From Thiomicrorhabdus sp. zzn3 (GTDB lineage Bacteria; Pseudomonadota; Gammaproteobacteria; Thiomicrospirales; Thiomicrospiraceae), in NCBI RefSeq assembly GCF_029767755.1, contig NZ_JARUQS010000001.1, positions 1,116,001-1,180,000 on the forward strand: a stretch of 64,000 nucleotides of DNA, read 5' to 3'. Made by a program: the position numbers and the translations under genes. Numbering within the stretch: position 1 is the stretch's first letter; each line of letters begins with the position of its first letter. Of this stretch, positions 8,889 through 59,527 are shown one piece after another. The notes beneath the pieces are model-generated. The model was given only the letters and a program-made list of their open reading frames with translations. It had not been told where the DNA came from and did no database searches.

Positions 8889-8910
8889 AAGCAAACAGGC
8901 CTGCCAGGAG
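8889..8910. repeat. CAGGCCTG motif copy (left arm of stem-loop)
   Basis: Core octamer at 8896-8903; forms the left arm of the stem-loop at 8894-8930. Confidence 0.7.
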
Positions 8911-8930
8911 TTATTTCCGGCAGGCCTGTT
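8894..8930. terminator. Stem-loop made of two inverted CAGGCCTG motifs
   Basis: A perfect 12-bp stem, AACAGGCCTGCC (8894-8905) / GGCAGGCCTGTT (8919-8930), with a 13-nt loop, followed by CAGTTT. It lies between the convergent csiV and HbpS-like genes and probably terminates csiV. It is the only place in the window where two copies of the dispersed motif face each other. Confidence 0.75.
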
Positions 8931-8935
8931 CAGTT
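8914..8935 (+). repeat. CAGGCCTG motif copy, exact TTCAGTTT tail
   Basis: Core octamer at 8921-8928 followed by the exact tail TTCAGTTT on the plus strand; right arm of the stem-loop. Confidence 0.8.
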
Positions 8936-8952
8936 TCAAAGAACCGAAAAAC

Positions 8953-9462
8953 TTAAAACGCCAATCGATCTTCCAGCTTTTCCAATGCCTTGAGGGCACA
9001 CGCCTCATCCTTTTCGCCACCGGGCGCACCGCTGACACCGATTGCCCCAACACGTACCCCGCCGCTGATGATCGGTACCGCACCGACCATCATTAATACG
9101 CCATTCACATGATTCAACTCCGGACGGATATCGCCGCGCTGGGCACGGAAGTCACCGGATTTCAGCCCGGACATAATGGTTGAATTGGCTTTCTCCTCGG
9201 CGATTTGCAAAGTAAACTTGGAGGCAAAATCATCACGCAACGCCACACGTTGATTACCGTGGCGATCCACCACTACCGCACTGACAGAATAGCCTTTTTC
9301 ACGGCACGCCGTAATCGCTTCACTTGCCAGATCGCGCGCCAGTTCCATGCCAATATTACGTTCGTCCACTACATCTTCGGCAAACGCCGCGGGCGTGGCA
9401 CTTAACATCCCCAACACCAACAACATAGCTGATCGAACGGTTTTTGCACCCTGTAATCTCAC
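8953..9462 (-). CDS. Secreted GlcG/HbpS-family protein
   Basis: A 169-residue protein with a clear Sec signal (cleavage near AFA-ED, residue 29) and a GlcG/HbpS (DUF336) domain: SEAITACREKGYSVSAVVVDRHGN, FTLQIAEEKANSTIM and the glycine-rich VGAIGVSGAPGGEKDEACA. Characterised relatives are octamers that bind haem or corrinoids, or are accessory to glycolate utilisation. A periplasmic haem- or redox-sensing role is inference. It may be cotranscribed with the DUF4156 lipoprotein upstream, with one motif copy between them. Confidence 0.8.
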   Translation of the reverse strand: MRLQGAKTVRSAMLLVLGMLSATPAAFAEDVVDERNIGMELARDLASEAITACREKGYSVSAVVVDRHGNQRVALRDDFASKFTLQIAEEKANSTIMSGLKSGDFRAQRGDIRPELNHVNGVLMMVGAVPIISGGVRVGAIGVSGAPGGEKDEACALKALEKLEDRLAF

Positions 9463-9484
9463 ATCGAACTCCTTTTGCCATGAA

Positions 9485-9506
9485 GGCCTAGCAGGCCTGT
9501 TCAGTT
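9485..9506 (+). repeat. CAGGCCTG motif copy, exact TTCAGTTT tail
   Basis: Core at 9492-9499, between two minus-strand genes. The T-rich tail points against the direction of transcription, so it cannot be an ordinary terminator for either neighbour. Confidence 0.8.
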
Positions 9507-9516
9507 TAATCTGCGT

Positions 9517-9855
9517 TTATTTTTTAGGGTTGCAGAGGTAAACATCAAATACCATCACCCCGTCTTTCACCGGGGCACGCGGCACAATGGTGTCCCCGCC
9601 CATCAACGCGGCTTCGTTTTGTGCTAACGCGGTCAATTCTCCGGTCATTTTGTCTGCATCACGCTCAATAAAACCGATTTTGTGTTTAACCAGCGAGCGC
9701 GTATAACCGAGTTTCTCGCAGGACGCTACCTGCTCATAACTGCTGACGCTCACCTGCGCGCCCTGCTCACTGACCTTTACCCAACTGCACGCAGACAGTG
9801 TCGCCACAGCTGTGGCTGCAACCAGTGCTCTGACCCCTGCCGTCACCTTTTTCAT
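9517..9855 (-). CDS. DUF4156-family lipoprotein
   Basis: A 112-residue lipoprotein precursor: Lys-rich start, hydrophobic segment and lipobox TLSAC with lipidated Cys at residue 22. The mature part fits DUF4156, with CEKLGYTRS in the middle, ALMGGDTIV and a C-terminal VYLCNP, leaving two cysteines that could pair. No biochemical function is known for the family. It precedes the HbpS-like gene on the same strand. Confidence 0.8.
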   Translation of the reverse strand: MKKVTAGVRALVAATAVATLSACSWVKVSEQGAQVSVSSYEQVASCEKLGYTRSLVKHKIGFIERDADKMTGELTALAQNEAALMGGDTIVPRAPVKDGVMVFDVYLCNPKK

Positions 9856-10009
9856 GATCTTCTCCTTTAGCCCTTAGCGGGTTAGATTGAAATCGTTAAC
9901 AGATCTCTTTACCCTGTCTATAATGCAAACAGATCGCAAATAGATCAACCTGTTTGCAATCTTTTCACAAAAGGGGTCAAAGCCTTGTAACAAATGGATA
10001 GACGCAGCT

Positions 10010-10216
10010 ATGGCTTCAATTTTAATTCTCATCGGATTGCTTTTGGTAGTGATCGGCGTCATTGTTAAATGGGCACCGGGTTTACTAAGCTGGTTTGGCC
10101 AGCTGCCCGGCGACATTCACATTCAAACCGCCCGTGGCGAGCTCTTCATCCCTTTTACCTCGATGATCCTGACCAGCATTGCCATCAGTTTAATTTTGAA
10201 CTTCTTTAAACGCTGA
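10010..10216 (+). CDS. DUF2905-family small membrane protein
   Basis: A 68-residue protein with two membrane segments separated by the conserved GLLSWFGQLPGDIHIQ stretch characteristic of DUF2905 (about 70 residues, widely conserved, function unknown). No strong ribosome site is visible before this ATG, but the length and sequence match the family. It converges on the next gene, with stop codons 7 bp apart. Confidence 0.85.
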   Translation: MASILILIGLLLVVIGVIVKWAPGLLSWFGQLPGDIHIQTARGELFIPFTSMILTSIAISLILNFFKR

Positions 10217-10223
10217 AGACTCC

Positions 10224-10859
10224 TCAGGCCTTTAACGGTTTGACGTTCAGCAAAGAAACGAACAGCGAGATCACGATAGTGCCGAACATAAAACAAAATA
10301 GGCCATGCGACGTCAAAACACCCCAGGTGAGCAAATCAGCAGGCACAAACGGCGGACTCAGCGCAAACTGGGTATGCATGGCTTGCATTAACGGCGCTTG
10401 CCACGCACCCAGCAAATAATCAGGAACTTCGGCAAAGGCGCCCACGATTTGATAGACGCCAGCAAACAAAAACATCGCCGTCAGGTAATTCACCATGGCG
10501 AGCACAATCACCCGCCCGGTTGCCGACACGGCCGTGCCTTCGGTGATTTTACAGATGCCAAACAGGATCACCCCGAGTTCTTTATTAAGAATACCGATAA
10601 TGCGCAACCCTAATAACAACGCAATCCATTGCGGCAGAGAAAAAAGACTGCTTAAAATAAACAGGCCTGCTGCCAAAACCAGCCAGCCCACAATGTAAAA
10701 CTCCGACAGGAACAGGCGCCGGTTGCGCAGTTGTTGCCAGGAATCAGACTCCGGTTCAAATGCGAATTCCCTGTTTTTAAAATAACGATCCAGCCAAAAA
10801 TAAGGGGAAAGCGCATAGATCCAGCGTATCAACTCCTTAACAACAGCCGCAATATTCAT
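10224..10859 (-). CDS. Uncharacterised integral membrane protein
   Basis: A 211-residue protein with a soluble basic N-terminus (about 55 residues, including FWLDRYFKNREFAFEPESD) and four predicted membrane segments near residues 56-76, 78-98, 117-140 and 178-203. I do not recognise the family. A GAGG ribosome site lies about 10 nt before the ATG. The gene follows the MBL hydrolase on the same strand by 34 bp and may share its transcript. It contains one CAGGCCTG octamer. Confidence 0.6.
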   Translation of the reverse strand: MNIAAVVKELIRWIYALSPYFWLDRYFKNREFAFEPESDSWQQLRNRRLFLSEFYIVGWLVLAAGLFILSSLFSLPQWIALLLGLRIIGILNKELGVILFGICKITEGTAVSATGRVIVLAMVNYLTAMFLFAGVYQIVGAFAEVPDYLLGAWQAPLMQAMHTQFALSPPFVPADLLTWGVLTSHGLFCFMFGTIVISLFVSLLNVKPLKA

Positions 10860-10893
10860 ACTTTTATCATCCTCACGCAGAGATTTTGATCGA

Positions 10894-11610
10894 TTAAAAC
10901 TCTATACGATCCCCGGGCAACAACAACGGCCAACCTTGTTTTTTCTGCACCCGCACATGCGTCATATCCAAACCGTGTCCAAGAATATAACGCCCGGCTT
11001 TCAACCAGGGCTTGACCTCGTCAAAGCTGGCATGCCAGGCATTGGCTTTTGGGCGTGAATCGATTATAAACACACCTGCCGAATCCAATTGAGAATACAG
11101 CGCTTCATCAAGCTTACTGTCACCGGTATAGGCTAACCGAGGCTGACCGTCAATTGACAGCAGAAATCCACAGCTGAACTCGGAGTGTACACCTTCAAAA
11201 AAGGTCACCGCTACCTGATCGTCCACGGCAATCGCTTCACCGCTGGAAGCGGTCTTCCAGCTTGCCAACTCCTCGGCACTCATCAAACTCAAATGCTCTG
11301 CGAGACGATGGGTTTTCAGACGATGGGCGACCTCCTCTTGGGCCAAGACGGTCAGTTTGCGCCCCTGTGCCTGCTCCACACGTAACACCACCGGCAGCTC
11401 CGCCGCATGGTCACTGTGATTGTGAGTAATCAAAATATGCTCCGGAAAATGGCCAAAATAAGAGAGCACCTGCTTGCCGACACACAAGCCAAGATCCACC
11501 AGACAAAACGGTTCATTTTCTCGCAGCAACATAAAACTGCTGCTGACCAGACCGTCATAAATGGAAGAAGCGCCCGAGCCACAGCCCAGTACCACCAGTT
11601 CATATTTCAT
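10894..11610 (-). CDS. MBL-fold metallo-hydrolase (RNase Z-like)
   Basis: A 238-residue metallo-beta-lactamase fold hydrolase. The metal motif HNHSDH is at residues 63-68, the later ligands are H142 (EGVHSEF), D164 (YTGDSKLD) and H212 (GHGLDMTH). This layout resembles the RNase Z/phosphodiesterase branch, but the long RNase Z exosite arm is missing, so tRNA processing is not assumed. The start has an AAGGAG site 8 nt upstream. The substrate is unknown. Confidence 0.8.
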   Translation of the reverse strand: MKYELVVLGCGSGASSIYDGLVSSSFMLLRENEPFCLVDLGLCVGKQVLSYFGHFPEHILITHNHSDHAAELPVVLRVEQAQGRKLTVLAQEEVAHRLKTHRLAEHLSLMSAEELASWKTASSGEAIAVDDQVAVTFFEGVHSEFSCGFLLSIDGQPRLAYTGDSKLDEALYSQLDSAGVFIIDSRPKANAWHASFDEVKPWLKAGRYILGHGLDMTHVRVQKKQGWPLLLPGDRIEF

Positions 11611-11901
11611 CTGTGCTTCTCCTTTAAGATTTATAGAATGCCGTTTACATCACGAAGAAACGGCCCCTAATTGTAAGCAATTCCCCGTGATAACTTATAA
11701 AATTTTCCTATGATTAGGCTAATCGATTGAAAACCGCTTATCGATCAAACGCTGCTATCATCCCTAAGTTCGCACGGTTTTTTAACGCTTGATTTGAATA
11801 AAAATTACCTATATTCTTGGCTAAAAAGCCGAATGTATTTTCAAAAATTTCAAATAATTAAAACCGATTGTCCCAAGCGAAGAGTCCTATAGAAAAGCCC
11901 C

Positions 11902-12285
11902 ATGTCGTTTTTGTCTGTGATTACCCTGTTGCTGGTCTACCAGCTGATTGGCGAACTGATTGTTCTGCAACTGGCTCTGCCCGTACCCGGTCCGGTGATC
12001 GGCATGCTGTTATTGCTATTGACTCTATTGTTCAAGAAGCCGCTGGCGCTGAAAATGGAACCCACCGCGCAACAGTTTCTTGCGCATCTTTCACTGCTGT
12101 TTATTCCCGCCGGGGTCGGGGTGATGGTGCATTGGGAACGCCTGCAAACCGAATGGCTGGCTATTTTGCTGGCTCTGCTGATCAGCACGATTTTAGGCTT
12201 ACTGGTGACCGCCGGAATCATGCTATTACTCATGCGCTGCTCCGGTCACTCGCCATCTCAGCCTGATTCTAAGGAGACACCATGA
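11902..12285 (+). CDS. lrgA: CidA/LrgA-family holin-like protein
   Basis: A 127-residue protein with four membrane segments and the family signature YQLIGELIVLQLALPVPGPVIGML near the N-terminus. CidA/LrgA proteins are holin-like and, with LrgB, affect murein hydrolase export or pyruvate and glycolate movement in different bacteria. Its stop overlaps the lrgB start, so the two are translationally coupled. The 291-bp gap upstream is AT-rich and presumably carries the promoter; no strong ribosome site is seen. Confidence 0.85.
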   Translation: MSFLSVITLLLVYQLIGELIVLQLALPVPGPVIGMLLLLLTLLFKKPLALKMEPTAQQFLAHLSLLFIPAGVGVMVHWERLQTEWLAILLALLISTILGLLVTAGIMLLLMRCSGHSPSQPDSKETP

Positions 12286-13001: not shown

Positions 13002-13015
13002 TCGAGGCTCTGCCA

Positions 13016-13037
13016 TTCTCAACAGGCCTGTTCGATT
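13016..13037 (+). repeat. CAGGCCTG motif copy
   Basis: Core at 13023-13030, 22 bp after the lrgB stop; tail TTCGATTT deviates slightly from the consensus. Confidence 0.7.
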
Positions 13038-13159
13038 TCGTCTCGCAAAGCATGCGACTTCCTTGTTAAAGCGGTAAGATAAACATCAGAAAAGCGTTTA
13101 ATCAGCGCTTGCCTTTTTTGATCGAAGTCGGCCTCACTCTGCTATTCAGGAGAATCATC

Positions 13160-13948: not shown

Positions 13949-14017
13949 TTCTATCTGCTGCTTTTAACCGGCCTGCCCGGTTTCTACCGAATCCAAGACA
14001 ATCTCATTAACTTGCTT

Positions 14018-15310: not shown

Positions 15311-15351
15311 GACCTTAACCCATAGCGTTTATCGTATTAGCAAAGGGGCGC

Positions 15352-15999: not shown

Positions 16000-16056
16000 T
16001 TAAGCGCATCCCCGTGGGTTCAGCCCTTGAGAGATGGCTTTCTTGCAGCAGCAGAA

Positions 16057-16078
16057 ATTTAAACAGGCCTGTTCAGTG
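16057..16078 (+). repeat. CAGGCCTG motif copy touching a stop codon
   Basis: Core at 16064-16071. The tail TTCAGT supplies the minus-strand TGA stop (16073-16075) of the DUF4386 gene. Confidence 0.75.
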
Positions 16079-16783
16079 TGCAAGACGGCTACCCTTGATC
16101 AACAACCATAAACACAAAGCGAGCTCGGTCATCAAAGGAATCCCATAAAGCGGTTCAATCACTCCCAGGGCTTCGGCAAAGAGAAACCGGCTGAAACTGC
16201 CGAGCAAATACACCGCCGCTGCGGCAATCAAGCCATAACCCAATAACTTAGGAAAATAACTGGATTTAATCATCAAATATCCAAGGATCAAACTGGAAAC
16301 ACCAAAGAAGATCAACCCCAAGTCATAGCCGTGACCATGCACATCCAGAGTCATCAACAACAGGTTCTGAACTTGACTATCCCCCAACCCGCCTTCGGCA
16401 TTCATGCCATAGCCTGCGCCGTTCAACAGCAACATCGCTGCATAATAGCTCAATAGATTAACCCCGATAATGGCGGCCTGCATAAGGCGAAACGCGGCGG
16501 CCATTAGCGATAGTGTTTGATTGACCGGTTTGAACATCAGATAAAACAGCACGGCAATCGCCACATCACTCAACAGCATAATTGCATCGGCGGCAAAGCC
16601 TAATCGGAATAAACCTTGCGACCCTAGGATGTTCGTTGTGGTCGCCGCGGCATCCCCAGCCACAATCAAATTGGAGCGAATAAACACTTCGCTGCCAATA
16701 CCGCAGACGATGATAATCAAATAGAGAATACCGGCTAACCGGGCGTACTGCAGATAAGGATTCATCTCGGCTTTTGTCTCCAT
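16073..16783 (-). CDS. DUF4386-family membrane protein
   Basis: A 236-residue protein with six predicted membrane segments and the DUF4386 pattern YARLAGILYLIIIVCGIGSE at the N-terminus, later DVHGHGYDLGLIFFGVSSLILGYL. Function is unknown for the family. I use the ATG at 16783 rather than the TTG at 16786. Its stop codon is embedded in a copy of the dispersed motif. The upstream cyclase ends 8 bp before it, so the two are probably cotranscribed. Confidence 0.8.
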   Translation of the reverse strand: METKAEMNPYLQYARLAGILYLIIIVCGIGSEVFIRSNLIVAGDAAATTTNILGSQGLFRLGFAADAIMLLSDVAIAVLFYLMFKPVNQTLSLMAAAFRLMQAAIIGVNLLSYYAAMLLLNGAGYGMNAEGGLGDSQVQNLLLMTLDVHGHGYDLGLIFFGVSSLILGYLMIKSSYFPKLLGYGLIAAAAVYLLGSFSRFLFAEALGVIEPLYGIPLMTELALCLWLLIKGSRLAH

Positions 16784-16790
16784 CAAAGGC

Positions 16791-22486: not shown

Positions 22487-23587
22487 TTAATGCTTATTAG
22501 AATGGGTCAAACGATAAATATTGCCAGAATCGGTCCCGATATAAATTCGTCCCTCTTTATCGATCGCCAGACTGCGCAGGCGCTGATTGAGGGGTTGCAA
22601 ATAGCGATTTTCTTTCACCGGCCGCTGTTGGGCATTTAAAACAATGTGGTTCAGGTGCTGCAGTTTCAGGGCACCGGTTAACAGGTCACCTTGCCAGGAT
22701 TTAAACTCCTCACCGTCATAGACCTGTAAATCACTCGGGGCAATGGACGGTATATACACCTTAATCGGTTCTTGCATCCCCGCCTTATGCTTTACCCCTA
22801 CCGCAAAATCCGAAAAATATTCCAGACCTTGGGACACCACCGGCCAGCCATAGTTGCGCCCTTTCTCAATCAAGTTGATCTCATCCCCACCTCTCGGTCC
22901 ATGCTCAACCTCCCAAAGTCGATCCGTTTTCATATCGTAAAACAGACCTTGCGGATTACGATGGCCGTAGCTCCAAATTTCATCCAACGCTTGTGCATGA
23001 TCTACAAACGGATTATCCCTGGGCACACTGCCGTCCATATTCAGACGAAGAATACTGCCGGCATGATTGGTTAAGTCCTGCGCGTTGGATCTCACCCCGC
23101 GATCGCCAATCGAGAAAAACACATGCCCCTTGCCGTCAAAGGCGATGCGACTGCCAAAATGAATATTGCGTAAACTGGCCGAATCGCTGACCAACAGATC
23201 CTGCCAATCCGTCAAAGCGTTATTTTTCAATTTAGCCCGCGCCAACGTGGTTCTCGCCTGAATCAATTCCGGCTTACTGTAGGTAAAATAAAGCCAGCCT
23301 GTTTCCGCATAATCCGGAGGAACCGCCACATCCAGCAACCCACCTTGATTTTGCGCATGCACCTCCGCCACACCGGATAACCAGATCACACGGTGATCTG
23401 ACACATCCAACAGGCCTGCCTTCCCTCCCCGTTGGGTAAAAATGATTCGGTCGGAATCCACAAAATCCATTCCCCAAACCACGCCCAAATTGCTGGCCAT
23501 TTTTTCAATCTGGATAGACTTATCATTTGCCACAACGGCTTGAGAGAACAAAACGAAAAACAAAACAAACGATTGGCACAGGCGCAT
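22487..23587 (-). CDS. PQQ-dependent sugar dehydrogenase (YliI/Asd family)
   Basis: A 366-residue periplasmic beta-propeller protein with a signal peptide (cleavage near AVVA-ND, residue 21). Family motifs: VVWGMDFVDSDRIIFTQRGG, NIHFGSRIAFDGKGHVFFSIGDRG, IWSYGHRNPQGL and VEHGPRGGDEINLIEKGRNYGWP, which holds PQQ/Ca2+-contacting residues in soluble glucose/aldose dehydrogenases. It likely oxidises sugars in the periplasm; whether PQQ is made by this organism cannot be seen here. A GAGGAG site lies 8 nt before the ATG. Confidence 0.88.
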   Translation of the reverse strand: MRLCQSFVLFFVLFSQAVVANDKSIQIEKMASNLGVVWGMDFVDSDRIIFTQRGGKAGLLDVSDHRVIWLSGVAEVHAQNQGGLLDVAVPPDYAETGWLYFTYSKPELIQARTTLARAKLKNNALTDWQDLLVSDSASLRNIHFGSRIAFDGKGHVFFSIGDRGVRSNAQDLTNHAGSILRLNMDGSVPRDNPFVDHAQALDEIWSYGHRNPQGLFYDMKTDRLWEVEHGPRGGDEINLIEKGRNYGWPVVSQGLEYFSDFAVGVKHKAGMQEPIKVYIPSIAPSDLQVYDGEEFKSWQGDLLTGALKLQHLNHIVLNAQQRPVKENRYLQPLNQRLRSLAIDKEGRIYIGTDSGNIYRLTHSNKH

Positions 23588-25994: not shown

Positions 25995-26137
25995 CAGTCC
26001 TCTCCTCTCAATCCAATTTTGTGTCTCTCTATGATAATGGAGTCGTTTCACTGCGAAAAGAGGCGCGAGGTAAAACCATGTCAAAAAATAAAAATCCGCA
26101 TTCCAAGCTCACACCATGTGCGGAGAGGGGAAAGATA

Positions 26138-26159
26138 AACCAAACAGGCCTGCTCATTA
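26138..26159 (+). repeat. CAGGCCTG motif copy, diverged tail
   Basis: Core at 26145-26152 between two minus-strand genes; tail CTCATTAT is diverged. Confidence 0.6.
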
Positions 26160-26181
26160 TTCAAGGTGTCTGAACGGGAAG

Positions 26182-28759: not shown

Positions 28760-28794
28760 ATAAGAAGAGGGCTTCGAAAAAACCGGACAAAATA

Positions 28795-28816
28795 AACCGA
28801 ACAGGCCTGTTCGGTT
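28795..28816. repeat. CAGGCCTG motif copy, fully palindromic form
   Basis: A perfect 22-bp palindrome, AACCGAACAGG/CCTGTTCGGTT, core 28802-28809, downstream of a minus-strand gene. Confidence 0.85.
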
Positions 28817-28846
28817 GTGCGAAAGGGTGCGCCTTAGTGTAAGGCT

Positions 28847-29263: not shown

Positions 29264-29303
29264 GGGGTATTGTCTGTCTTTACTGGTATTCGAACGAATT
29301 ATA

Positions 29304-29325
29304 AACTGAACAGGCCTGGTCAGTT
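29304..29325 (-). repeat. CAGGCCTG motif copy, minus-strand orientation
   Basis: Core 29311-29318. The left arm AAACTGAACAGGCCTG is an exact reverse copy of the consensus; the right arm has one mismatch. Confidence 0.8.
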
Positions 29326-29367
29326 ATCTGAAGAATCAAGCAATTCTATCCTATCGAACAGAAAAGA

Positions 29368-35152: not shown

Positions 35153-35176
35153 AATCAACAATCGTTATGGCAGAAA

Positions 35177-35198
35177 AAACGAACAGGCCTGTTCAGTT
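35177..35198 (+). repeat. CAGGCCTG motif copy between divergent genes
   Basis: Core 35184-35191 with exact TTCAGTTTTAAAAT tail, shared base for base with the copy at 52858. It lies between divergent promoters, where a terminator is not expected. Confidence 0.85.
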
Positions 35199-35482
35199 TT
35201 AAAATTCGATTTTATTTCATCGCTCTGCGCCCATTGCTCTGAGCTCTTTCATCAAGAAAGCTGTGCCGATCTCTATCTTAAACAGATGGCAGTTAAGCAG
35301 ATTTCGGAGCCTATAAACCGGAAATAGCCGCGAGGATTGACAGGTAATCCAATATCGGGAAAAAAAACCTTTAAAATACACCAAGTTCCGTTTTATTCTG
35401 AACCTGATTATTCCAACCCAACAAGTGTACCCAACCATGGCGTTACCAAAGCGCTGCCACTGGTTTTACCAATTGAGACCCA

Positions 35483-36850
35483 ATGAAATTTACCGAACTT
35501 GGCTTAAATGCCCACATCACCAAAGCTGTCAGTAACACTGGCTACACCACCCCTACTCCAATCCAGGCCCAGGCGATCCCTGCTATTCTGGATGGCCATG
35601 ACCTCATGGCAGCCGCGCAGACAGGCACCGGCAAAACCGCGGCTTTTACCCTGCCATTGCTCGAAAGACTCTCGCAAGGCCGCAAAGCCAAATCCAATCA
35701 GGCCCGCGCCCTCATCCTCACACCAACGCGAGAGCTTGCCCTTCAAGTGAGTGAGAGTGTTGAAACCTATGGTCAAGAGCTGTCTTTAAGTTCCACCGTT
35801 GTTTACGGCGGCGTCAAAATCAATCCGCAAATGATGCGCCTGCGCAAAGGCGTCGACATACTGGTGGCTACGCCTGGCAGATTGCTTGATCTTTATCAGC
35901 AAAACGCCGTGCGCTTTGATCACCTGGAAATGCTTGTGCTGGATGAAGCTGATCGCATGTTGGATATGGGCTTTATTCGCGACATCAAAAAAATTCTGAC
36001 ATTACTGCCTAAACAGCGCCAGAACCTGCTGTTCTCGGCCACCTTTTCCAACGAGATTCGTGAACTGGCCAAAGGGCTGGTGCATAACCCGGTGGAAATT
36101 TCGGTCACGCCCAAAAACTCCACCGCTGAAACCGTAAAACAGAAAATCTATCCGGTCGATAAAGCGCAAAAAACCAAATTACTGATTCAACTGATGAAAG
36201 ACCAGGCCTGGTATCAGGTGCTCGTTTTCACCCGAACCAAGCATGGCGCCAACCGGCTTGCTACCCAATTAGACAAAAGCGGCATTAAGGCGAGCGCGAT
36301 TCATGGCAACAAAAGCCAAAACGCCCGGGTGCGCGCCTTGAATGAATTTAAAGGCAATAAACTGCAAGTGCTGGTGGCCACGGACATCGCCGCACGCGGC
36401 ATTGATATCGACCAGCTGCCTCACGTGGTCAATTTCGATCTGCCGCACGTGTCCGAAGACTATGTTCACCGCATCGGCCGCACAGGACGTGCCGGAGAAA
36501 GCGGCGAAGCCGTGTCACTGGTGTGTGCTGAAGAATTCAAAGAGCTGGTCAGTATTGAGAATCTGATTAATCAGATTCTGCCAAGAGAGATCGTTGCAGG
36601 CTTTGAACCGCACAACCCTTTAGGCGAATCCAAACTCGGTCTGAAAAAAAAGAAACCGAAAAAGCCTAAAAAGCCGAAAGTATTTGCAGAAAAGTCGGCT
36701 GAACAAAAGGCCACTGCAAAAGAAAACACTGAAAAGCCTGCCAACAAGCGGCCGCCACGCCATCGCCAAAAACCACCAGGACACCCCCCTCGTAGACGAA
36801 GCCGAAAACTGCAGACTTCAGGCCGTGATAACAGCAATCGTCAAAACTAG
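35483..36850 (+). CDS. rhlE: DEAD-box RNA helicase RhlE
   Basis: A 455-residue DEAD-box helicase with Q motif ([14 protein letters not shown]), motif [10 protein letters not shown], motif II DEAD ([13 protein letters not shown]), motif III SAT, and motif [12 protein letters not shown]. The C-terminal 75 residues are Lys/Pro/Arg-rich ([12 protein letters not shown] and [10 protein letters not shown]), typical of RhlE. It remodels RNA in ribosome assembly and RNA decay. An imperfect hairpin terminator follows. It carries one in-frame CAGGCCTG octamer. Confidence 0.93.
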
Positions 36851-38913: not shown

Positions 38914-40686
38914 CTATTTTTTCTTCTTCGGAGGCATCAGGTCAGTAATCGTCCCTTCGGCCATCTCTGCGGCGAAGCAGATGGTTTCCGATAACGTTGG
39001 GTGAGGATGGATGGTCAGACCGATGTCTTGCATATCCGCGCCCATTTCAATCGCCAGCATGGCTTCAGCTACCAATTCACCGGCGTTTGGCCCGACAATA
39101 CCGCAACCTAGCAGACGATGGGTTTCAGCACAGAACAACGCTTTGGTCATCCCTTCGTCACGTCCCAAACTCAAGCTGCGTCCGGAAGCGGCCCATGGGA
39201 AAGCGCCTTTCTCGTACGCCACACCTTCGGCTTTAAGCTGTTCTTCCGTTTTACCGGCCCAAGCCACTTCCGGATCGGTATAAGCCACCGATGGAATGCC
39301 CATTGGGGTAAACGCGGATGGCATGCCGTTAATGACTTCTGCCGCCACTTTCCCTTCGTGAACCGCTTTGTGCGCCAGCATTGGCTGCCCCACGATGTCA
39401 CCGATGGCGTAGATGTGATCGACATTGGTTTTCTGACGTTCGTCGACTTCAATGAAGCCCCAGTCGTTAACGATGACACCGGCCTTTTCAGCGTCGATCA
39501 GTTTACCGTTTGGCGTACGCCCTACCGCGACCAAAATACGGTCGAAGGTATCGGTTTCCGGGCAGTCTTTGCCTTCAAAGGTCACCACCAGTCCATCTTC
39601 CTTGGCTTCCACATTGGTCACCTTGGATTTCAGATAGATGTTCTCGTATTTCTTTTTGATCTTTTTCAGTAACGGCTTGGAGATGTCTTTATCCGCACCC
39701 GGAATGATGGTGTCGCCCAATTCCACCACTGTAATACTGGCACCCAGTGAATCATATACCTGCGCCATTTCCAAGCCGATGATACCACCACCGATCACCA
39801 ACATGCGCTTTGGAATCTCTTCCAGCTCAAGGGCATCGGTTGAGTCCATGACGCGCGGATCGTCATGCGGAATAAACGGCAGTTTCACCACACGTGAACC
39901 GGCGGCGATAATGGCGTTGTCAAAGGAGATGGTTTTAGTCCCACCATCAGCCAACTCAACCGTTACCGTATGAGACGAGCTGAACTTACCGTAACCCTGC
40001 ACCACTTCAACTTTACGCGCTTTGGCCAGGCCTGCCAGACCGCCGGTCAGTTTACCGATTACAGAATCTTTGTAGGCACGCATTTTGTTGACGTCAATTT
40101 CCGGCTCTTGGAAAGTGATACCGTGCGCCCCCATTTCACGGGTTTCGTTCAATACCACCGACATGTGCAACAACGCTTTAGACGGAATACAGCCGACGTT
40201 CAAGCACACCCCACCGATGTTTTCATAACGCTCGATCATGACCACTTTTTTGCCCAAATCCGCCGCACGGAAAGCGGCCGTATAACCACCAGGACCGGAG
40301 CCCAAAACCAACACTTCACAGTGCATGTCGGCTTCAATCCCTTCCGCCGAAACGGCTTTTGGGGCGTCAACCGCTTTCTCATCTTCAGCCGGAGCGGCAG
40401 TGGCGGCCACGCTTTCTTCCACATTGGCACTGACGGATTCGACATCGGCAATTTCCATGCTGCCGACGATCGTCCCTTCAGAAACCTTATCACCGATAGC
40501 AATGTTCATCGCTACAATTTTACCAGCGTGCGGCGCTGGAATTTCCATGGTCGCTTTGTCCGATTCCAACGTCAAAATGGAGTCGTCCTGAATCACTTCG
40601 TCACCGGCGTTCACCAACACTTCGATGACGTCTACTTCGGCGAAATCGCCAATATCAGGAATTTTGATATCTACAATACTGCTCAT
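38914..40686 (-). CDS. lpdA: Dihydrolipoyl dehydrogenase (E3) with N-terminal lipoyl domain
   Basis: A 590-residue E3. Residues 1-78 form a lipoyl domain (lipoyl Lys in TLESDKATMEI), then an Ala/Glu-rich linker to about 125, the FAD motif VLGSGPGGYTAAFRAADLGKK, the redox disulfide GGVCLNVGCIPSK, an NAD domain (VIGGGIIGLEMAQ) and the C-terminal HPHPTLSE base motif. It regenerates oxidised lipoamide for PDH. Lipoylated E3s of this type occur in several Proteobacteria. It follows aceF by 15 bp; the protein ends in a Lys run. The sequence around its stop codon recurs at 35117. Confidence 0.96.
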   Translation of the reverse strand: MSSIVDIKIPDIGDFAEVDVIEVLVNAGDEVIQDDSILTLESDKATMEIPAPHAGKIVAMNIAIGDKVSEGTIVGSMEIADVESVSANVEESVAATAAPAEDEKAVDAPKAVSAEGIEADMHCEVLVLGSGPGGYTAAFRAADLGKKVVMIERYENIGGVCLNVGCIPSKALLHMSVVLNETREMGAHGITFQEPEIDVNKMRAYKDSVIGKLTGGLAGLAKARKVEVVQGYGKFSSSHTVTVELADGGTKTISFDNAIIAAGSRVVKLPFIPHDDPRVMDSTDALELEEIPKRMLVIGGGIIGLEMAQVYDSLGASITVVELGDTIIPGADKDISKPLLKKIKKKYENIYLKSKVTNVEAKEDGLVVTFEGKDCPETDTFDRILVAVGRTPNGKLIDAEKAGVIVNDWGFIEVDERQKTNVDHIYAIGDIVGQPMLAHKAVHEGKVAAEVINGMPSAFTPMGIPSVAYTDPEVAWAGKTEEQLKAEGVAYEKGAFPWAASGRSLSLGRDEGMTKALFCAETHRLLGCGIVGPNAGELVAEAMLAIEMGADMQDIGLTIHPHPTLSETICFAAEMAEGTITDLMPPKKKK

Positions 40687-42027: not shown

Positions 42028-42084
42028 AGTAAGAATTCCTTTTATCAACGCACCGACGTGGTTTAGGTTAAGTTGTCAGTGCTT

Positions 42085-42106
42085 GTCAGACCAGGCCTGT
42101 TGGGTT
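42085..42106 (+). repeat. CAGGCCTG motif copy in the aceE-aceF gap
   Basis: Core 42092-42099; tail TTGGGTTTT is slightly diverged. It sits between the aceE terminator and the aceF start. Confidence 0.65.
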
Positions 42107-42130
42107 TTAGGCCGGGTTTGAGTCAATACA

Positions 42131-45476: not shown

Positions 45477-45770
45477 ATGAATCTTAGAAACATGCTATTG
45501 ATAGCAAGTCTGCTTGTTACAAGTCCGCTTGCCTACGCCAATCCCGTGAATGTGAACACGGCGAGCCCGCAAGAAATTGCCCACTCACTGGACGGGGTTA
45601 ATCCAAACCTGGCAAGAGAAATTTCGCTACATTGCGGGGCCACAAACTGTAAGCAGCCAAAGGATCTGCTGCATGTTTACGGCATGAGCCCAGACCTGTT
45701 GCATCATATTAAAGGAGACTTACGTTTTCATGATATGAAGCCGGAAAAGGATTCAAATGACGATTGCTAG
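45477..45770 (+). CDS. Secreted ComEA-like helix-hairpin-helix protein
   Basis: A 97-residue protein with a signal peptide (NLRNMLLIASLLVTSPLAYA) and one tandem HhH unit: VNVNTASPQEIAHSL, then DLLHVYGMSPDLLHHIKG. The VNVNTAS opening is the ComEA hallmark. ComEA binds incoming DNA in the periplasm during transformation; other small members are of unknown role. Two cysteines (HCGATNC) interrupt the usual inter-hairpin linker. The ATG has AAGGAG 7 nt upstream. No other competence gene lies in the window. Confidence 0.8.
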   Translation: MNLRNMLLIASLLVTSPLAYANPVNVNTASPQEIAHSLDGVNPNLAREISLHCGATNCKQPKDLLHVYGMSPDLLHHIKGDLRFHDMKPEKDSNDDC

Positions 45771-47259: not shown

Positions 47260-47274
47260 GCCTCATCATCTGAC

Positions 47275-47300
47275 AACCGAACAGGCCTGTTCGGTTTTTT
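47275..47300 (+). terminator. Palindromic motif copy acting as terminator
   Basis: A perfect 22-bp palindrome AACCGAACAGG/CCTGTTCGGTT (core 47282-47289) followed by TTTT, 15 bp after the HAD gene stop. Of all motif copies this looks most like a working Rho-independent terminator. Confidence 0.8.
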
Positions 47301-48332: not shown

Positions 48333-48359
48333 CATTAACAAGCTTAGTTCTGGTCATTT

Positions 48360-52048: not shown

Positions 52049-52066
52049 CAAGGTCGCACGTATCTA

Positions 52067-52852
52067 CTACTGCGCCAGCCAGATCAGGCTGGCGATGCGC
52101 CCGGTTTGGCCATCGCGCCGATAGGAATAAAAGCGCGATTCATCGGCATAGGTACACAATTCACTATCGTAAATCTGTTCGACCCCCAATCCCGCCAATT
52201 CCAATTTGAGCAGGCCTGCCAGGTCGGCCAAATACTTGCCCTCACTGTCTTTTATCGCTGTGAAACAGGCCGTATTGTGCGTATTTAACTCGGCAAACGC
52301 ATCGTACACATCCTGCCCGACTTCAAAGTAAGGCTGGCGAATATGCGGGCCAATCCAAACCAATAACGCTTCAGGAGATTCAGGCAGTTGTTTAACGGTT
52401 CTACTGACAATCCCCTCCGCCAAGCCACGCCAACCAGCATGAATGGCGGCCACTAACGTGGCGGAACGGTTAGTGATCAAGATCGGCAAACAGTCGGCGG
52501 TCATCACCACCGCCACTTGATTCGTCTGTCGACTCCAAGCCGCATCGGCAATCGGGGCCTGCCAATCTTGCTGATCAAAAGAGTCCAAATTGACGACCTC
52601 AACCGTATGCTGTTGATTGAGCCAATACGGTGCACAAGGCAAATCGCCCTGCTGTTGCAGACAACGACGGTTGCTTGTCACATTTTCGGGGTCATCGCCA
52701 ACGTGCAGGGCGAGATTAAAATCGTCGTAAGGCGGCAAACAGGCACCGCCACAGCGGGTTGTGCATAAGGCTTTAACCGATGCCTGTACCGGCCAGCTGG
52801 GGATAATAAACTCCGAGTGTGGACAGCTTAGCGCTCGCGTGGGCTTATGCAT
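52067..52852 (-). CDS. pgeF: YfiH/PgeF-family (laccase-domain) enzyme
   Basis: A 261-residue protein of the YfiH family: CTTRCGGACLPPYDDFNLALHVGDD, VVMTADCLPILI, AIHAGWRGLAEGIVSRT, GPHIRQPYFEVGQDV and FYSYRRDGQTGR. His, Cys and His residues in VVMTADC and AIHAGWRG form the usual metal site. Family members correct mis-incorporated residues in peptidoglycan precursors or act as purine nucleoside hydrolases or phosphorylases. It follows rluD (70 bp), and a motif copy lies directly before its ATG with no other ribosome site visible. Confidence 0.88.
   Translation of the reverse strand: MHKPTRALSCPHSEFIIPSWPVQASVKALCTTRCGGACLPPYDDFNLALHVGDDPENVTSNRRCLQQQGDLPCAPYWLNQQHTVEVVNLDSFDQQDWQAPIADAAWSRQTNQVAVVMTADCLPILITNRSATLVAAIHAGWRGLAEGIVSRTVKQLPESPEALLVWIGPHIRQPYFEVGQDVYDAFAELNTHNTACFTAIKDSEGKYLADLAGLLKLELAGLGVEQIYDSELCTYADESRFYSYRRDGQTGRIASLIWLAQ
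52073..52094. terminator. Hairpin across the pgeF end
   Basis: Perfect 8-bp stem CGCCAGCC (52073-52080) / GGCTGGCG (52087-52094) covering the last codons of pgeF, between convergent genes. No U-run. Confidence 0.45.
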
Positions 52853-52872
52853 TCAACCAGGCCTGTTCAGTT
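52851..52872 (+). repeat. CAGGCCTG motif copy adjoining the pgeF start
   Basis: Core 52858-52865 with exact TTCAGTTTTAAAAT tail. Its left end reaches the pgeF ATG (52852), where a ribosome site would be expected. Confidence 0.85.
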
Positions 52873-52922
52873 TTAAAATGCATTCGGACGCACGCATCGG
52901 CCTGATTGCCGGAAACAGGCAC

Positions 52923-55108: not shown

Positions 55109-55133
55109 AGTTAATACTAAAAAAGTCACCAAT

Positions 55134-55177
55134 CAAAAAAACGCCGCAGATTCATTAAGAATTGCGGCGTTTTTTTA
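55134..55177. terminator. Bidirectional terminator
   Basis: Stem ACGCCGCA (55141-55148) / TGCGGCGT (55163-55170) flanked by A-run on the left and T-run on the right, between convergent bamD and nadE. Confidence 0.92.
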
Positions 55178-55187
55178 GGTTTTACTT

Positions 55188-56819
55188 TTATTCACTGTAA
55201 CGACTGGTAATCGGATAACGACGATCACGCCCAAAGGCTCGATGGGTAATCTTAATCCCCGGAGCGGCCTGGCGGCGTTTGTATTCGCTACGGTCGATCA
55301 TGCGAATCACGCGTCGCACTTCGGTTTCATCATAGCCCAACGCAACGATCTGCGCCGGCGTTTTATCTTCTTTGACATACGCCCTGATAATGGCATCCAA
55401 GGTATCGTAATCCGGCAAGGAATCCTGATCTACCTGGTCCGGACGCAACTCCGCCGACGGCGGGCGGGTAATCACCCGTTCGGGAATGACCTCTTCTGAC
55501 AAACTGTTTCTGTAGATCGCCAGACGATAGACCAGCGTTTTCGGCACATCTTTCAATGGCGAAAAACCGCCCACCATGTCGCCATACAGGGTCGAATAAC
55601 CGACCGCAACTTCACTCTTGTTGCTCGTCGCCAGCACCATACTGCCGGTTTTGTTGGACAATGCCATCAGCAAGGTGCCACGAATACGGGCCTGCAAGTT
55701 TTCTTCCGTCACATCCGCTTCATAGCCGGCAAAATCTTCGGCGAGCGCAGACTCGAAAGCTTGATACATCGGTTCGATCGGTTTGACACTGTATTTAACG
55801 CCCAAAGTCGCGGCCTGTTTTTCAGCATCTTCCATGCTGATTTCCGCCGTATAACGAAACGGCATCATCACCGCCTCAACACGATCTGCTCCCAGCGCAT
55901 CCACCGCTAACGCCAAGGTCAAGGCCGAATCGATCCCGCCGGACAGTCCTAGGATGACACCGGGAAAACCGTTTTTTTCCACATAATCGCGGATACCCAT
56001 CATCAATGCATGATAAACACGGGCTTCATCCTGATGCAGTTCTGCCTGCTCACCCGGCAACATCACTAAGGCATCCGCCTGCTTCATCAGTTTCACCGGC
56101 GTATAAGCTTCACTGAACTCGGGAGCTTGCACCATCACTTCGCCTTCACCGGACATGGCGAACGAGCAGCCATCAAACACCAATTCATCCTGCCCGCCTA
56201 CCTGGTTGACATAGATCACCGGACACTTCACTTCATTAACACGGCGCCGCACCACATTCAGACGGTCCTGATGTTTTTCTTGTGAAAAAGGCGAGGCATT
56301 TAAGTTCAGCAGAATCTCAGCGCCCGCCTCTACCGCTTGCGCCGCTGGTGAAATTTTCCAGATGTCCTCACAGACCAGCAAACCGAATTTTATCCCTTTG
56401 TAGTCCACGACACAGGGCTGCTTGCCCGGCGAAAAATAGCGCTGCTCGTCAAACACGCTGTAATTGGGCAAGTTCTGTTTGATATAGCTGCCCTGTATCT
56501 GACCATTTTCGATCCAGGCCGCCATATTAAAGCGTTCACCCAGTTCATCCATCATTGGATACCCGACCACTACAGCCATATCCTGAATCTGTTCACACAG
56601 AGTCGATAAGGCCTGATCAATTTGCGGGTAGAGCCCTTCTCGCAACAACAGATCTTCCGGCGGATAACCGGTTAAAGTCATCTCAGGAAACACCACAATA
56701 TCCGCTTGATGATCGGTTCTAGCGGCATTCGCAGCCTCGATCACTTTTTCGACATTGCCGTTAATATCTCCAACCACGGCATTGATCTGTGCCATCACAA
56801 GGGTTACGTTCTGGGTCAT
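55188..56819 (-). CDS. nadE: Glutamine-dependent NAD+ synthetase
   Basis: A 543-residue two-domain enzyme. N-terminal nitrilase-like glutaminase (about 1-260) with Glu/Lys/Cys: VVFPEMTLTGYPPEDLL, KQNLPNYSVFDEQR and GLLVCEDIW. C-terminal ammonia-dependent synthetase with the P-loop LGLSGGIDSALTLAL and KTGSMVLATSNKSE. Makes NAD from deamido-NAD and glutamine. The ATG at 56819 gives correct spacing to AAGGA; the GTG at 56825 is too close. It lies 48 bp downstream of sucD. Confidence 0.95.
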   Translation of the reverse strand: MTQNVTLVMAQINAVVGDINGNVEKVIEAANAARTDHQADIVVFPEMTLTGYPPEDLLLREGLYPQIDQALSTLCEQIQDMAVVVGYPMMDELGERFNMAAWIENGQIQGSYIKQNLPNYSVFDEQRYFSPGKQPCVVDYKGIKFGLLVCEDIWKISPAAQAVEAGAEILLNLNASPFSQEKHQDRLNVVRRRVNEVKCPVIYVNQVGGQDELVFDGCSFAMSGEGEVMVQAPEFSEAYTPVKLMKQADALVMLPGEQAELHQDEARVYHALMMGIRDYVEKNGFPGVILGLSGGIDSALTLALAVDALGADRVEAVMMPFRYTAEISMEDAEKQAATLGVKYSVKPIEPMYQAFESALAEDFAGYEADVTEENLQARIRGTLLMALSNKTGSMVLATSNKSEVAVGYSTLYGDMVGGFSPLKDVPKTLVYRLAIYRNSLSEEVIPERVITRPPSAELRPDQVDQDSLPDYDTLDAIIRAYVKEDKTPAQIVALGYDETEVRRVIRMIDRSEYKRRQAAPGIKITHRAFGRDRRYPITSRYSE

Positions 56820-56867
56820 AAACACGGTTCCTTAAGGCTCTGCATAAAATGGCTAATAATGCCTGAA

Positions 56868-57749
56868 TTAGCTTAACTGCTTAAGCATGGCATCTCCGAG
56901 ATCCGCCGGCGAGCGAACCACGGTGACACCAGCCGCTTCCAGCGCCGCAAATTTTGCCTCAGCCGTACCTTTACCCCCGCTCACAATCGCCCCGGCATGC
57001 CCCATGCGTTTTCCTGGAGGCGCGGTGACACCGGCAATGTAAGCGACAACCGGCTTGGTGACATTGGCTTTGATAAAGTCGGCGGCATCTTCTTCCGCCT
57101 GACCGCCGATCTCACCGACCATAATAATCCCTTCGGTTTGCGGATCTTCCTGGAACAGACGTAAGCAATCAATAAAGTTCATGCCCTGAATCGGATCGCC
57201 GCCAATACCGACGCAAGTCGATTGGCCTAAACCATTATGGGTGGTTTGGTGCACCGCTTCATAAGTCAGCGTTCCCGAACGCGAGACCACACCGATTTTA
57301 CCTGGCAGATGAATGTGTCCCGGCATAATACCGATTTTGCAGCCTTCGCCGTCCACGCCTGGACTAATCAAGCCTGGACAGTTCGGACCGATCAAATACG
57401 CATCCGACTTGTCCAGTACGGCACGCACTTTGAGCATGTCCGCCACCGGAATCCCTTCGGTAATACAGGTAATGACTTTGATGCCGGCGTCAATCGCCTC
57501 GATAATCGAGTCTGCAGCAAATGGCGGCGGCACATAAATCATCGACGCTTCGGCACCGGTTTGTTCCACCGCCTCGCGTACCGTATTGAAAACCGGCAGT
57601 CCCAAATGCGTTTGCCCGCCTTTACCGGGGGTCACCCCGCCCACCATTTTAGTACCATAGGCAATGGCTTGCTCTGAGTGAAAGGTTCCCTGTTTGCCGG
57701 TAAACCCCTGACAGATCACTTTGGTGTTCTTATCGATCAAAATACTCAT
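56868..57749 (-). CDS. sucD: Succinyl-CoA synthetase alpha subunit
   Basis: A 293-residue subunit with the CoA-binding fold ([27 protein letters not shown]), the conserved [19 protein letters not shown] and the phosphohistidine loop [19 protein letters not shown] near residue 240. Catalyses interconversion of succinyl-CoA and succinate with nucleotide formation. Its ATG overlaps the sucC stop (TAATG), so translation is coupled. The usual sucAB genes are not adjacent, which fits an incomplete or split TCA cycle common in obligate autotrophs (inference). Confidence 0.96.
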
Positions 57750-58918
57750 TACGCTGTTACTCCCGCTGCCTCAACCACTTTCTTGGCCGCATCCGCCAAA
57801 CCATCTGCCGTGATAATGCTTAAACCACTCTTCGCCAGTTTCTCTTTACCCAGTTCCACATTCGTGCCTTCCAAACGCACCACAACCGGAATCGTTAAGC
57901 CGACTTCTTGAACCGCCTGGATAATCCCGTCGGCAATCAAGTCACAGCGAACGATTCCGCCAAAGATATTCACCAGAATCGATTTCACCTGGTCTGAAGA
58001 GAGAATCAGTTTAAAGGCTTCCGCCACGCGCTCAGGCGTCGCACCGCCGCCCACATCGAGGAAGTTGGCCGGTTCACCACCATTGAGTTTGATCAAGTCC
58101 ATGGTCGCCATTGCCAAACCGGCTCCATTAACCATACAGCCAATATCGCCGTCCAACGCAATGTAATTCAGTTGGTGCTCTGACGCTTTGGCTTCGCGTT
58201 CGTCTTCTTGAGAAAAGTCGCGCATTTCCACCAGCGCCGGCTGACGGTAAAGCGCATTGGAATCGATATTCACTTTGGCATCCAGGGCGATCAATTCGTT
58301 ATCCGCAGTACGAATCAACGGGTTGATCTCCACCTGGGCCACGTCCTTGTCCAACGCCAGTTGATAGAACCGCTGCATCAGTTGGCCGATCTGTTTAAAG
58401 GCGGTGCCAGTCAACCCCAAGGCAAAGCCGACTTCACGGCACTGATACGGCATCACACCTACGGTCGGATCGATATGCACCGTTAAAATCTTTTCCGGAG
58501 ACTGCTCGGCGACTTCTTCGATGTCCATGCCGCCCGCCGCAGAGATAATAAACGTATGCGTCCGGCTGACACGATCGACCACCAAGCTCAAATAAAGCTC
58601 TTCTTCAATCGCCAGGGTTTCTTCAATCAACAGACTGTTAATCGGCAAGGCTTTACCGGCCGTTTGAATCGTCGCCAAGGCACTGCCCAACAGTGAAGAG
58701 GCCACTTGCTGAGCTTCTTCACGACTTTTCACCAACTTAACCCCACCGGCCTTACCGCGTGCGCCGGCATGGATTTGCGCCTTGACCACCCACGCATCAC
58801 CGCCCACCTTCTGCATGGCCGGATCCAGTTCGCTTAATTCGGTAATCAGCACCCCTTCTGGCACGCCGATCCCATATTCCTTAAATAACGCCTTGGATTG
58901 ATATTCGTGTAAATTCAT
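57749..58918 (-). CDS. sucC: Succinyl-CoA synthetase beta subunit
   Basis: A 389-residue ATP-grasp subunit: [51 protein letters not shown] and [30 protein letters not shown]. Length is usual for the family. It opens the sucCD unit; the 293-bp upstream gap has no other gene except a possible 24-codon frame on the opposite strand. No regulator site is recognised. Confidence 0.97.
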
Positions 58919-58993
58919 CTAAAAACCCGTCTCCGATTTTCCGTGTCCGTTTTATCAAATGCATTCATCGCAGATATTTCAAAGGAGCACGAA

Positions 58994-59068
58994 ATGTTCA
59001 ATAGCCGTAAAATCCCCAATATTTTTCTGGCCGACATCCTATTTCAAAGCGACCAACCTACGCCTTAA
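58994..59068 (+). CDS. Possible 24-residue microprotein
   Basis: A short frame (MFNSRKIPNIFLADILFQSD...) opened by an ATG seven nt after a strong AAAGGAG site in the gap 58919-59211. Nothing else supports it, so it may be chance. The remaining gap is AT-rich and probably carries the promoter of the PP0621-family gene. Confidence 0.3.
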   Translation: MFNSRKIPNIFLADILFQSDQPTP

Positions 59069-59211
59069 CAGACCCAATCAAACAGGCTGTTACAGGCGGA
59101 CTTTACGCAGATAAAAAATTGCTTTTATTGTATGATTTTTGGACAATGTTTGCACCAACAATTCATCGGACACCCCCATTCTTATCGGGCCTGTCCCTCT
59201 AGAGAAACGAT

Positions 59212-59511
59212 ATGAGAGCAATTGTATTTCTGCTGTTTGTGATTCTGGTCTTTTTGATCCTGCGTTTTACCCTTAATCGAATCATCGAAATTCGCCGGCA
59301 AAACCGAGAGAAAAACGCCTCGCAAACGCAACAGGCCTCCTCACTGAACCCGGAAGAGCAGCCTATGGTGCGCTGTGCAGAATGTGGCGTACACCTGCCG
59401 CAATCAGAAGCCTACTTTGACGGTCAACATACCTTTTGCAGCGAAGGCCATATGCAGGCCTATCATCGTAAACAGCAAGAAAAACACGAACAAGACTCGG
59501 CTGAAAACTGA
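59212..59511 (+). CDS. PP0621-family protein
   Basis: A 99-residue protein with an N-terminal membrane anchor (IVFLLFVILVFLILRFTLNRI), an Arg/Lys-rich linker and the family's metal-like module: VRCAECGVHLPQSEAYFDGQHTFCSEGHMQAY, with Cys pairs positioned like a zinc ribbon. Function is unknown. Its TGA stop lies inside a motif copy. Confidence 0.82.
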   Translation: MRAIVFLLFVILVFLILRFTLNRIIEIRRQNREKNASQTQQASSLNPEEQPMVRCAECGVHLPQSEAYFDGQHTFCSEGHMQAYHRKQQEKHEQDSAEN

Positions 59512-59527
59512 ACAGGCCTGTTCCGTT
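59506..59527 (-). repeat. CAGGCCTG motif copy containing a stop codon
   Basis: Core 59513-59520. The left arm AAAACTGAACAGGCCTG is exact in minus orientation and supplies the TGA stop (59509-59511) of the PP0621-family gene; the right arm (TTCCGTTT) has one mismatch. Confidence 0.85.

Follow-up and report, generated by a model that had tools for sequence, protein, structure and literature searches.

A probable self-DNA uptake word and its dialects in Thiomicrorhabdus sp. zzn3 and related genomes

Analyses of a 64,000-nucleotide stretch of the genome of Thiomicrorhabdus sp. zzn3 (contig NZ_JARUQS010000001.1, positions 1,116,001 to 1,180,000; hereafter the window) indicated that the octamer CAGGCCTG, together with the AT-tract arms beside it, is probably a self-DNA uptake sequence, comparable to those of Neisseria and Haemophilus. 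DNA uptake is the process that we infer, and the receptor would be a pilin. The strongest evidence is the existence of dialects, that is, of other abundant words that replace CAGGCCTG in some related genomes. These were invisible to the preliminary description of the window, which was made by a model from the letters of this single stretch. An uptake word was nevertheless the first of the candidates it named, and is favored by the dialects, by the origin of copies through substitution in mfd and by the presence of copies in coding DNA.

Over-representation of the word

The window held 23 copies of CAGGCCTG compared with a mean of 0.95 and a maximum of 4 in 100 dinucleotide shuffles, which bears out the earlier estimate of about one expected in 64 kb. 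All 22 positions previously reported were correct and one additional copy, at 4201, had been overlooked. A simple gene caller placed 13 of the 23 copies in intergenic DNA, in agreement with the 13 originally counted as noncoding. Genome-wide counting, which the preliminary description had proposed, identified 859 copies of CAGGCCTG versus 21 of a reversed-word control in the 2.37 Mb genome of the window (G000; G-numbers denote the 62 genomes compared, from the family Thiomicrospiraceae).

A 464-kb sample, made up of the window and twenty 20-kb stretches, contained 150 CAGGCCTG sites where an order-3 Markov model predicted approximately 12.5, an excess of about 12-fold; tallied on both strands, the numbers were 300 and 25.1. 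The top 14 8-mers and top 14 10-mers listed for the sample were all pieces or extensions of CAGGCCTG with the exception of AACTCTTC, the sole unrelated over-represented word among those listed (z of 8.3 versus 54.9). Density was fairly even, with 5-10 copies per 20 kb in 18 of the 20 sampled stretches.

Dialects in related genomes

An order-level genome search yielded only the 62 Thiomicrospiraceae genomes, several of which are incomplete, and the sequence of the relatives was read as samples. The pyruvate dehydrogenase of the window was 83-85% identical to its homologues in Hydrogenovibrio sp. JE_KL2, Thiomicrorhabdus sp. 6S3-12, T. marina and Thiomicrospira sp. WB1. The comparison of related genomes, also proposed in the preliminary description, identified 236-1173 copies of CAGGCCTG in 32 of the 62 genomes and 74 or fewer in the other 30, seven of which had other words. 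We treated 39 genomes as word-bearing, namely the 32 with at least 200 copies of CAGGCCTG and the 7 in which a replacement word was abundant across the genome. Counts of 62-74 were considered low. Outside the family, the maximum CAGGCCTG count among 51 genomes of the same class was 225, with a reversed control there of 63.

For six of the seven low-count genomes with replacement words, the word was read from sampled stretches and confirmed genome-wide; the seventh, G004, was identified by count only. In motif discovery, copies that shared the same upstream flank contributed a single count. The word of G023 was TACCGGCCGGTA, whose extended form, aaa.tttACCGGCCGGTaaa.ttt, is palindromic. Asymmetric words were found in five genomes: CTCAACAGGCCGGGT in G020 (extended, AAACTCAACAGGCCGGGT), CCCAGCCTGG in G053 (CCCAGCCTGGcAGaTTTT), CCCAACCTGG in both G055 and G057 (CCCAACCTGGcAGATTTT) and CCACCCCTGG in G061 (CCACCCCTGGCGaTTtTt). 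The CAGGCCTG and CCGGCCGG words are palindromic. Genome-wide, CCMMVCCTGGC occurred 230-280 times in G053, G055, G057 and G061 and 24 times or fewer in the other 58 genomes. ACMGGCCGG, counted on both strands, occurred 770 times in G020, 457 times in G004 and 2232 times in G023; its maximum elsewhere was 149, in a genome with a reversed control of 157.

Finer variation was observed next to the core. The core-adjacent variant was AACAGGCCTGTT in G000, ACCAGGCCTGGT in G008, G014, G018, G027, G030, G033, G035, G036, G043, G050 and G059, and AGCAGGCCTGCT in G007 (6.4 kb sampled), and the bases at these positions were mixed in G042, G017 and G025. By visual reading, an AT tract started five bases past CCTG or CCGG in 11 of 12 abundant-word matrices. 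The tract flanked the palindromic words on both sides and the words of G020, G053, G055/G057 and G061 on a single side.

When a quick tree was built from the mfd sequences of 50 genomes, 7 changes of the CAGGCCTG label were needed, versus 16.2 with shuffled labels, and at least six of the 7 were forced by well-supported branches. The word was present in most deep branches of this tree, and G020, which has its own dialect, was the sister of G000 (Shimodaira-Hasegawa-like approximate likelihood ratio test, SH-aLRT, 93). Judging from this tree, several losses or switches of CAGGCCTG within the family are likely.

Other repeated sequences were noted in some relatives. Runs of at least seven G residues occurred at 0.23-0.71 per kb in stretches L231 (G011), L232 (G016), L233 (G029), L234 (G022), L220-L222 (G028) and L145 (G001), compared with 0-0.03 per kb in five relatives with at least 66 kb sampled. 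Bases 3-10 past the run were 78-88% A/T in G011, G016, G029 and G028, above the bases preceding it, and there was no A/T excess past the run in G022 (4 runs) or G001 (2 runs). In four genomes, 25 of the runs were coding and 19 intergenic. A G-run followed by an AT tract is possibly a further dialect, the only candidate in G011, G016, G029 and G028 and, less clearly, in G022 and G001. Stretches L112, L113 and L202-L204 of G012 contained an inverted repeat, TACAG-NNN-CTGTA, with 8 strand-hits versus 0.1 expected in 100 kb, which is perhaps a regulator site. Seeds from G003 and G031 had 7 and 9 strand-hits only, which we attributed to chance.

Selection on the DNA in mfd

The mfd alignment comprised 50 of the 62 genomes (30 + 20 loci), with G006 gapped at the word site. 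Of the 28 high-count genomes, 21 carried the word at one and the same position in the gene, compared with none of the 21 others. G053, G055 and G057 had their own words exactly at this site, with changes to conserved residues: PSLAV or PNLAV (G053, G055/G057) versus PGL and two small or branched residues (PGLVV-type) in their relatives. For the Gly-Leu pair of the site, 22 of 27 high-count genomes used the codons GGC-CTG, which were used in 19 of the 205 other Gly-Leu pairs in the same mfd genes (p 4e-15). These data showed that at this one site, in one gene, selection acts on the DNA itself. They also showed that the mfd word, one site of many, was remade in place by point mutation. In comEC, the common word was present in G017 and G025 where G020 has its own word, CAGGCCGG, with a two-codon alignment gap beside the site.

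Architecture and gene context

The repeated unit was approximately 24 bp, AaactgAaCAGGCCTGtTcagttT, and consisted of a GC core with AT-tract arms. Over the 150 sites of the sample, the flanks had a preference for A at -2 and for T or C at -4 and were A-rich from -6 to -8, with the mirrored preferences on the opposite side. A match at 9 or more of 12 consensus positions was found for one arm in 73 sites, for both arms in 31 and for neither in 46, and thus the usual unit, though not an absolute one, seems to be a core flanked by one good arm or more.

The near-palindrome of the preliminary description held for the better intergenic copies: in the window, 10 of 13 matched the 24-base consensus at 18-23 positions and the other three at 15-17. 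It did not hold for coding copies, of which the 10 in the window matched at 10-17 of the 24 positions, while those in the sample were non-palindromic beyond the octamer (mean perfect half-arm, 4.18) and had flank preferences similar to, though weaker than, those of intergenic copies. Intergenic DNA contained 84 of the 150 sites and coding DNA 66 (p 2e-21 for intergenic enrichment), the former number being probably somewhat too high, as the gene caller was crude, calling 79% of the sample coding and missing island genes. The tail facing right in most cases, as previously described, was not a general bias: the stronger arm was on the right in 60 sites, on the left in 70 and tied in 20 (p 0.43). 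At the 13 intergenic sites of the window it was on the right in 8 and on the left in 5.

The copies in the window are as follows (coordinates are those of the 24-base unit, the core is the octamer, strand is given as ".", and context is by the simple gene caller).

Copy 1: 4193..4216, strand., core 4201-4208; coding, overlooked earlier
Copy 2: 4651..4674, strand., core 4659-4666; in mfd, position kept in 21/28 high-count relatives
Copy 3: 4846..4869, strand., core 4854-4861; in mfd
Copy 4: 8475..8498, strand., core 8483-8490; coding
Copy 5: 8888..8911, strand., core 8896-8903; intergenic, convergent genes
Copy 6: 8913..8936, strand., core 8921-8928; intergenic, convergent genes
Copy 7: 9484..9507, strand., core 9492-9499; intergenic
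Copy 8: 10654..10677, strand., core 10662-10669; coding
Copy 9: 13015..13038, strand., core 13023-13030; intergenic
Copy 10: 16056..16079, strand., core 16064-16071; intergenic
Copy 11: 23403..23426, strand., core 23411-23418; coding
Copy 12: 26137..26160, strand., core 26145-26152; intergenic
Copy 13: 28794..28817, strand., core 28802-28809; intergenic, 21/24 to consensus
Copy 14: 29303..29326, strand., core 29311-29318; intergenic, 22/24 to consensus
Copy 15: 35176..35199, strand., core 35184-35191; intergenic, divergent genes, 22/24
Copy 16: 36195..36218, strand., core 36203-36210; coding
Copy 17: 40019..40042, strand., core 40027-40034; coding
Copy 18: 42084..42107, strand., core 42092-42099; intergenic
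Copy 19: 47274..47297, strand., core 47282-47289; intergenic, convergent genes, 21/24
Copy 20: 52203..52226, strand., core 52211-52218; coding
Copy 21: 52850..52873, strand., core 52858-52865; intergenic
Copy 22: 59505..59528, strand., core 59513-59520; intergenic, 23/24, the best in the window
Copy 23: 61680..61703, strand., core 61688-61695; coding

Competence genes and prepilins

G000 encodes ComEC, in an 867-codon frame, and ComEA, above the curated cut-off. ComEA (E up to 0.001) was identified in 38 of the 39 word-bearing genomes and in 15 of the 23 others (Fisher p 0.001, kinship ignored), and the only word-bearing genome without it is 82% complete. Above the curated cut-off, the numbers were 32 of 39 and 8 of 23. 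The window itself has a weak ComEA-type helix-hairpin-helix match at 45546-45719 (21 bits, below the family cut-off); the main ComEA is elsewhere in the genome.

Some candidates were rejected. Loss of ComEC as the cause of low counts was dropped because G020, which has a short comEC, has its own dialect. The comEC of G020 adjoins small genes and a frame that, by eye, is of phage-like, DNA-adenine-methylase-like appearance. GspH/FimT was discarded as receptor, as its matches were in 3 of the 62 genomes, all word-less. In size and order, one prepilin cluster, found in five of the 8 word-bearing genomes examined, looks to us like the pseudopilins of type II secretion. The prepilins of the cluster in G000, G020, G051 and G055 gave mainly N-terminal prepilin matches among the proteins scanned. 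In L276:1236-6090, three prepilin-like frames (222, 456 and 300 aa) surround a response regulator and a histidine-kinase-type ATPase.

Interpretation and alternative explanations

One favored word that is present in coding and intergenic DNA, is kept up at the DNA level and is switched across whole genomes calls for a genome-wide drive, and biased uptake with recombination is such a drive. It is the one usually proposed for the DNA uptake sequence (DUS) and the uptake signal sequence (USS), copies of which are found in both coding and intergenic DNA and have no orientation bias (excerpt of PMC1939737). If CAGGCCTG serves in uptake, the GC core would be bound by a competence receptor at the cell surface, and the adjacent AT tract may help the DNA to bend and enter. 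DNA carrying the word would be preferentially taken up and recombined, and copies would build up by point mutation and biased uptake wherever genes tolerate them. Drift in receptor specificity would then lead to the rewriting of a genome's copies into a new dialect. The palindromic dialects could represent a pair of overlapping half-sites in inverted orientation (each with CCTG or CCGG, then five bases and a T tract) and the asymmetric dialects a single half-site.

A more specific proposal is that the family represents a third, independently evolved case of self-DNA uptake, with palindromic two-half-site words whose receptor would engage either orientation, a design undescribed in the other two families, and with repeated turnover to single-half-site words and, in one group, perhaps to G-runs with an AT tract. 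We consider the chances for and against this proposal to be about equal.

Several findings weigh against an uptake sequence. Of the 12 single-mismatch variants of the core, 10 were near expectation in the 464-kb sample. The commonest words here are palindromic, whereas the known uptake words in the excerpt of PMC1939737 are non-palindromic. The matrix of G042 had no clear AT arms, and no replacement word emerged from the 17-106 kb sampled in each of 14 genomes without the word, of which four were pooled (G034, G041 and G048 were outside the sample). The mfd site was without the word in 7 of the 28 high-count genomes (G042, G054, G056, G021, G035, G002 and G005). The presence of ComEC did not track the word, as it was identified in 37 of the 39 genomes with a word and in 19 of the 23 without one (p 0.18), and in G020 comEC is truncated (595 codons, L176:4048-5652, versus 855-868 in relatives) although the dialect is abundant. 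Lastly, a pilin profile identified prepilins in all 8 word-bearing genomes examined, and none was identifiable as the receptor.

The word could instead be the binding site of a dimeric nucleoid or chromosome-architecture protein, an explanation consistent with the near-palindrome and its AT arms, the intergenic enrichment (84 of 150) and the fairly even density. However, hundreds of sites would have to change jointly between sister species, also inside conserved proteins and without a drive, and the asymmetric dialects misfit a symmetric dimer. We consider this explanation unlikely.

A highly iterated palindrome (HIP), as in cyanobacteria, for which an orphan methyltransferase would recognize part of the word and methylation-directed mismatch repair would create and preserve the copies, is in our opinion quite unlikely. 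The core is a GC palindrome, the palindromic dialects resemble the alternate HIPs that replace HIP1 in some cyanobacteria (excerpt of PMC4390886), and AGGCCT was found 528 times versus 199 expected in the 464-kb sample, 300 of these being inside CAGGCCTG. A single PF01555 match (78 bits) was found in G000, within a frame of 1125 codons. However, in a survey of PF00145 and PF01555 (E up to 0.001; PF02384, PF02086 and PF07669 were outside it), PF00145 was found neither in G000 nor in any of the 9 genomes of group g5, which have 840-1128 copies of CAGGCCTG each, and 16 of the 39 word-bearing genomes had neither family. In addition, a symmetric type II methylase would not maintain the asymmetric words of five genomes, and the AT arms beyond the core are conserved. 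The methylase-linked candidate of the preliminary description is weakened by the lack of tracking between PF00145 or PF01555 and the word and by the asymmetric words of five genomes.

Transcription terminators or repetitive extragenic palindrome (REP)-like elements spread by copying would fit the 21 of 83 oriented intergenic sites that lie in convergent-gene gaps, which account for 7,989 bp of the 89,502 bp of intergenic sequence with an orientation, and the 9 of 84 intergenic copies whose half-arms, 10-18 bp long, form a perfect inverted repeat, but are highly improbable given that 66 of the 150 sites are inside genes, that the mfd copies arose by substitution at homologous codons and not by insertion (both of which speak against the REP-like element suggested earlier) and that in tandem intergenic regions the stronger arm was upstream in 31, downstream in 14 and tied in 4, the opposite of a terminator T tract. 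The lack of a terminator-like orientation, with the coding copies, upholds the earlier statement that the word is not simply a terminator.

Comparison with known systems

Published work is cited here from excerpts. The DUS of Neisseriaceae is described as having distinct dialects that follow phylogeny, with some relatives lacking an obvious one (PMC3630211), and the words studied here resemble it in their very many copies, in their dialects within one family and in the existence of relatives without the word. They differ from the DUS, a 10-12-mer that is non-palindromic and to which the minor pilin ComP binds (PMC3630211), in that the commonest words here are palindromic, and in their letters, which are unrelated save for CTG/CAG in five of the six words here. 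The USS of Haemophilus has a core and AT-tract design, and DNA recovered after uptake has been sequenced (PMC7811141); copies of uptake words arise by mutation (PMC1626085). A short GC core with AT tracts and an origin of copies by mutation, not insertion, are thus shared with the USS (PMC7811141, PMC1626085, PMC12616744). By contrast, the USS is non-palindromic and of two types, and here there are at least six words in one family (eight with flank variants).

Alternate HIPs are described as replacing HIP1 in some cyanobacteria, and the likeness of HIP1 to the words here is in frequent GC-rich palindromes replaced by other palindromes in some relatives (PMC4390886). HIPs are paired with cognate methyltransferases (PMC4390886), whereas no PF00145 or PF01555 methylase was common to the genomes that bear a word, and several of the words studied here lack symmetry and have AT arms. 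CAGGCCTG would be set apart from the known uptake sequences, whose function we infer it to share, by its being palindromic and by how many dialects there are.

The excerpt of PMC12616744 gives only two families as known to have uptake sequences. Literature searches on the family ("Thiomicrospira" with "uptake sequence", "Thiomicrorhabdus" with "natural transformation") found no report, and there was none among the broader matches listed. Among the matches listed for the letters of CAGGCCTG, the subjects were unrelated by title. If the uptake reading is correct, the Thiomicrospiraceae, presumably sulfur oxidisers and not animal-associated bacteria, would be a third family, which would suggest that such tags evolve repeatedly. 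The rewriting of hundreds of copies between sister species would be a direct record of a change in uptake specificity, and hence of genetic isolation. Dialects among close relatives would also make it testable whether the word follows the receptor, how fast words turn over and whether lineages are isolated by dialect.

Islands poor in the word

Two of the 20 sampled 20-kb stretches held 1-2 copies of CAGGCCTG, versus 5-10 in the others, and had the lowest GC of all (0.393 and 0.419). Word count followed GC (Spearman 0.50, 92 windows of 5 kb), base composition being a confounder. The scarcity of the word in islands may reflect their recent arrival, but AT-rich DNA may in any case hold fewer copies of a word rich in GC. 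The first of the two word-poor stretches contains a polysaccharide/O-antigen-type cluster. The second has a tRNA-Met next to a phage-type integrase and zero copies of the word to the right of it; this region, L093:11370-20000, also has AT-rich genes and is likely an integrated island.

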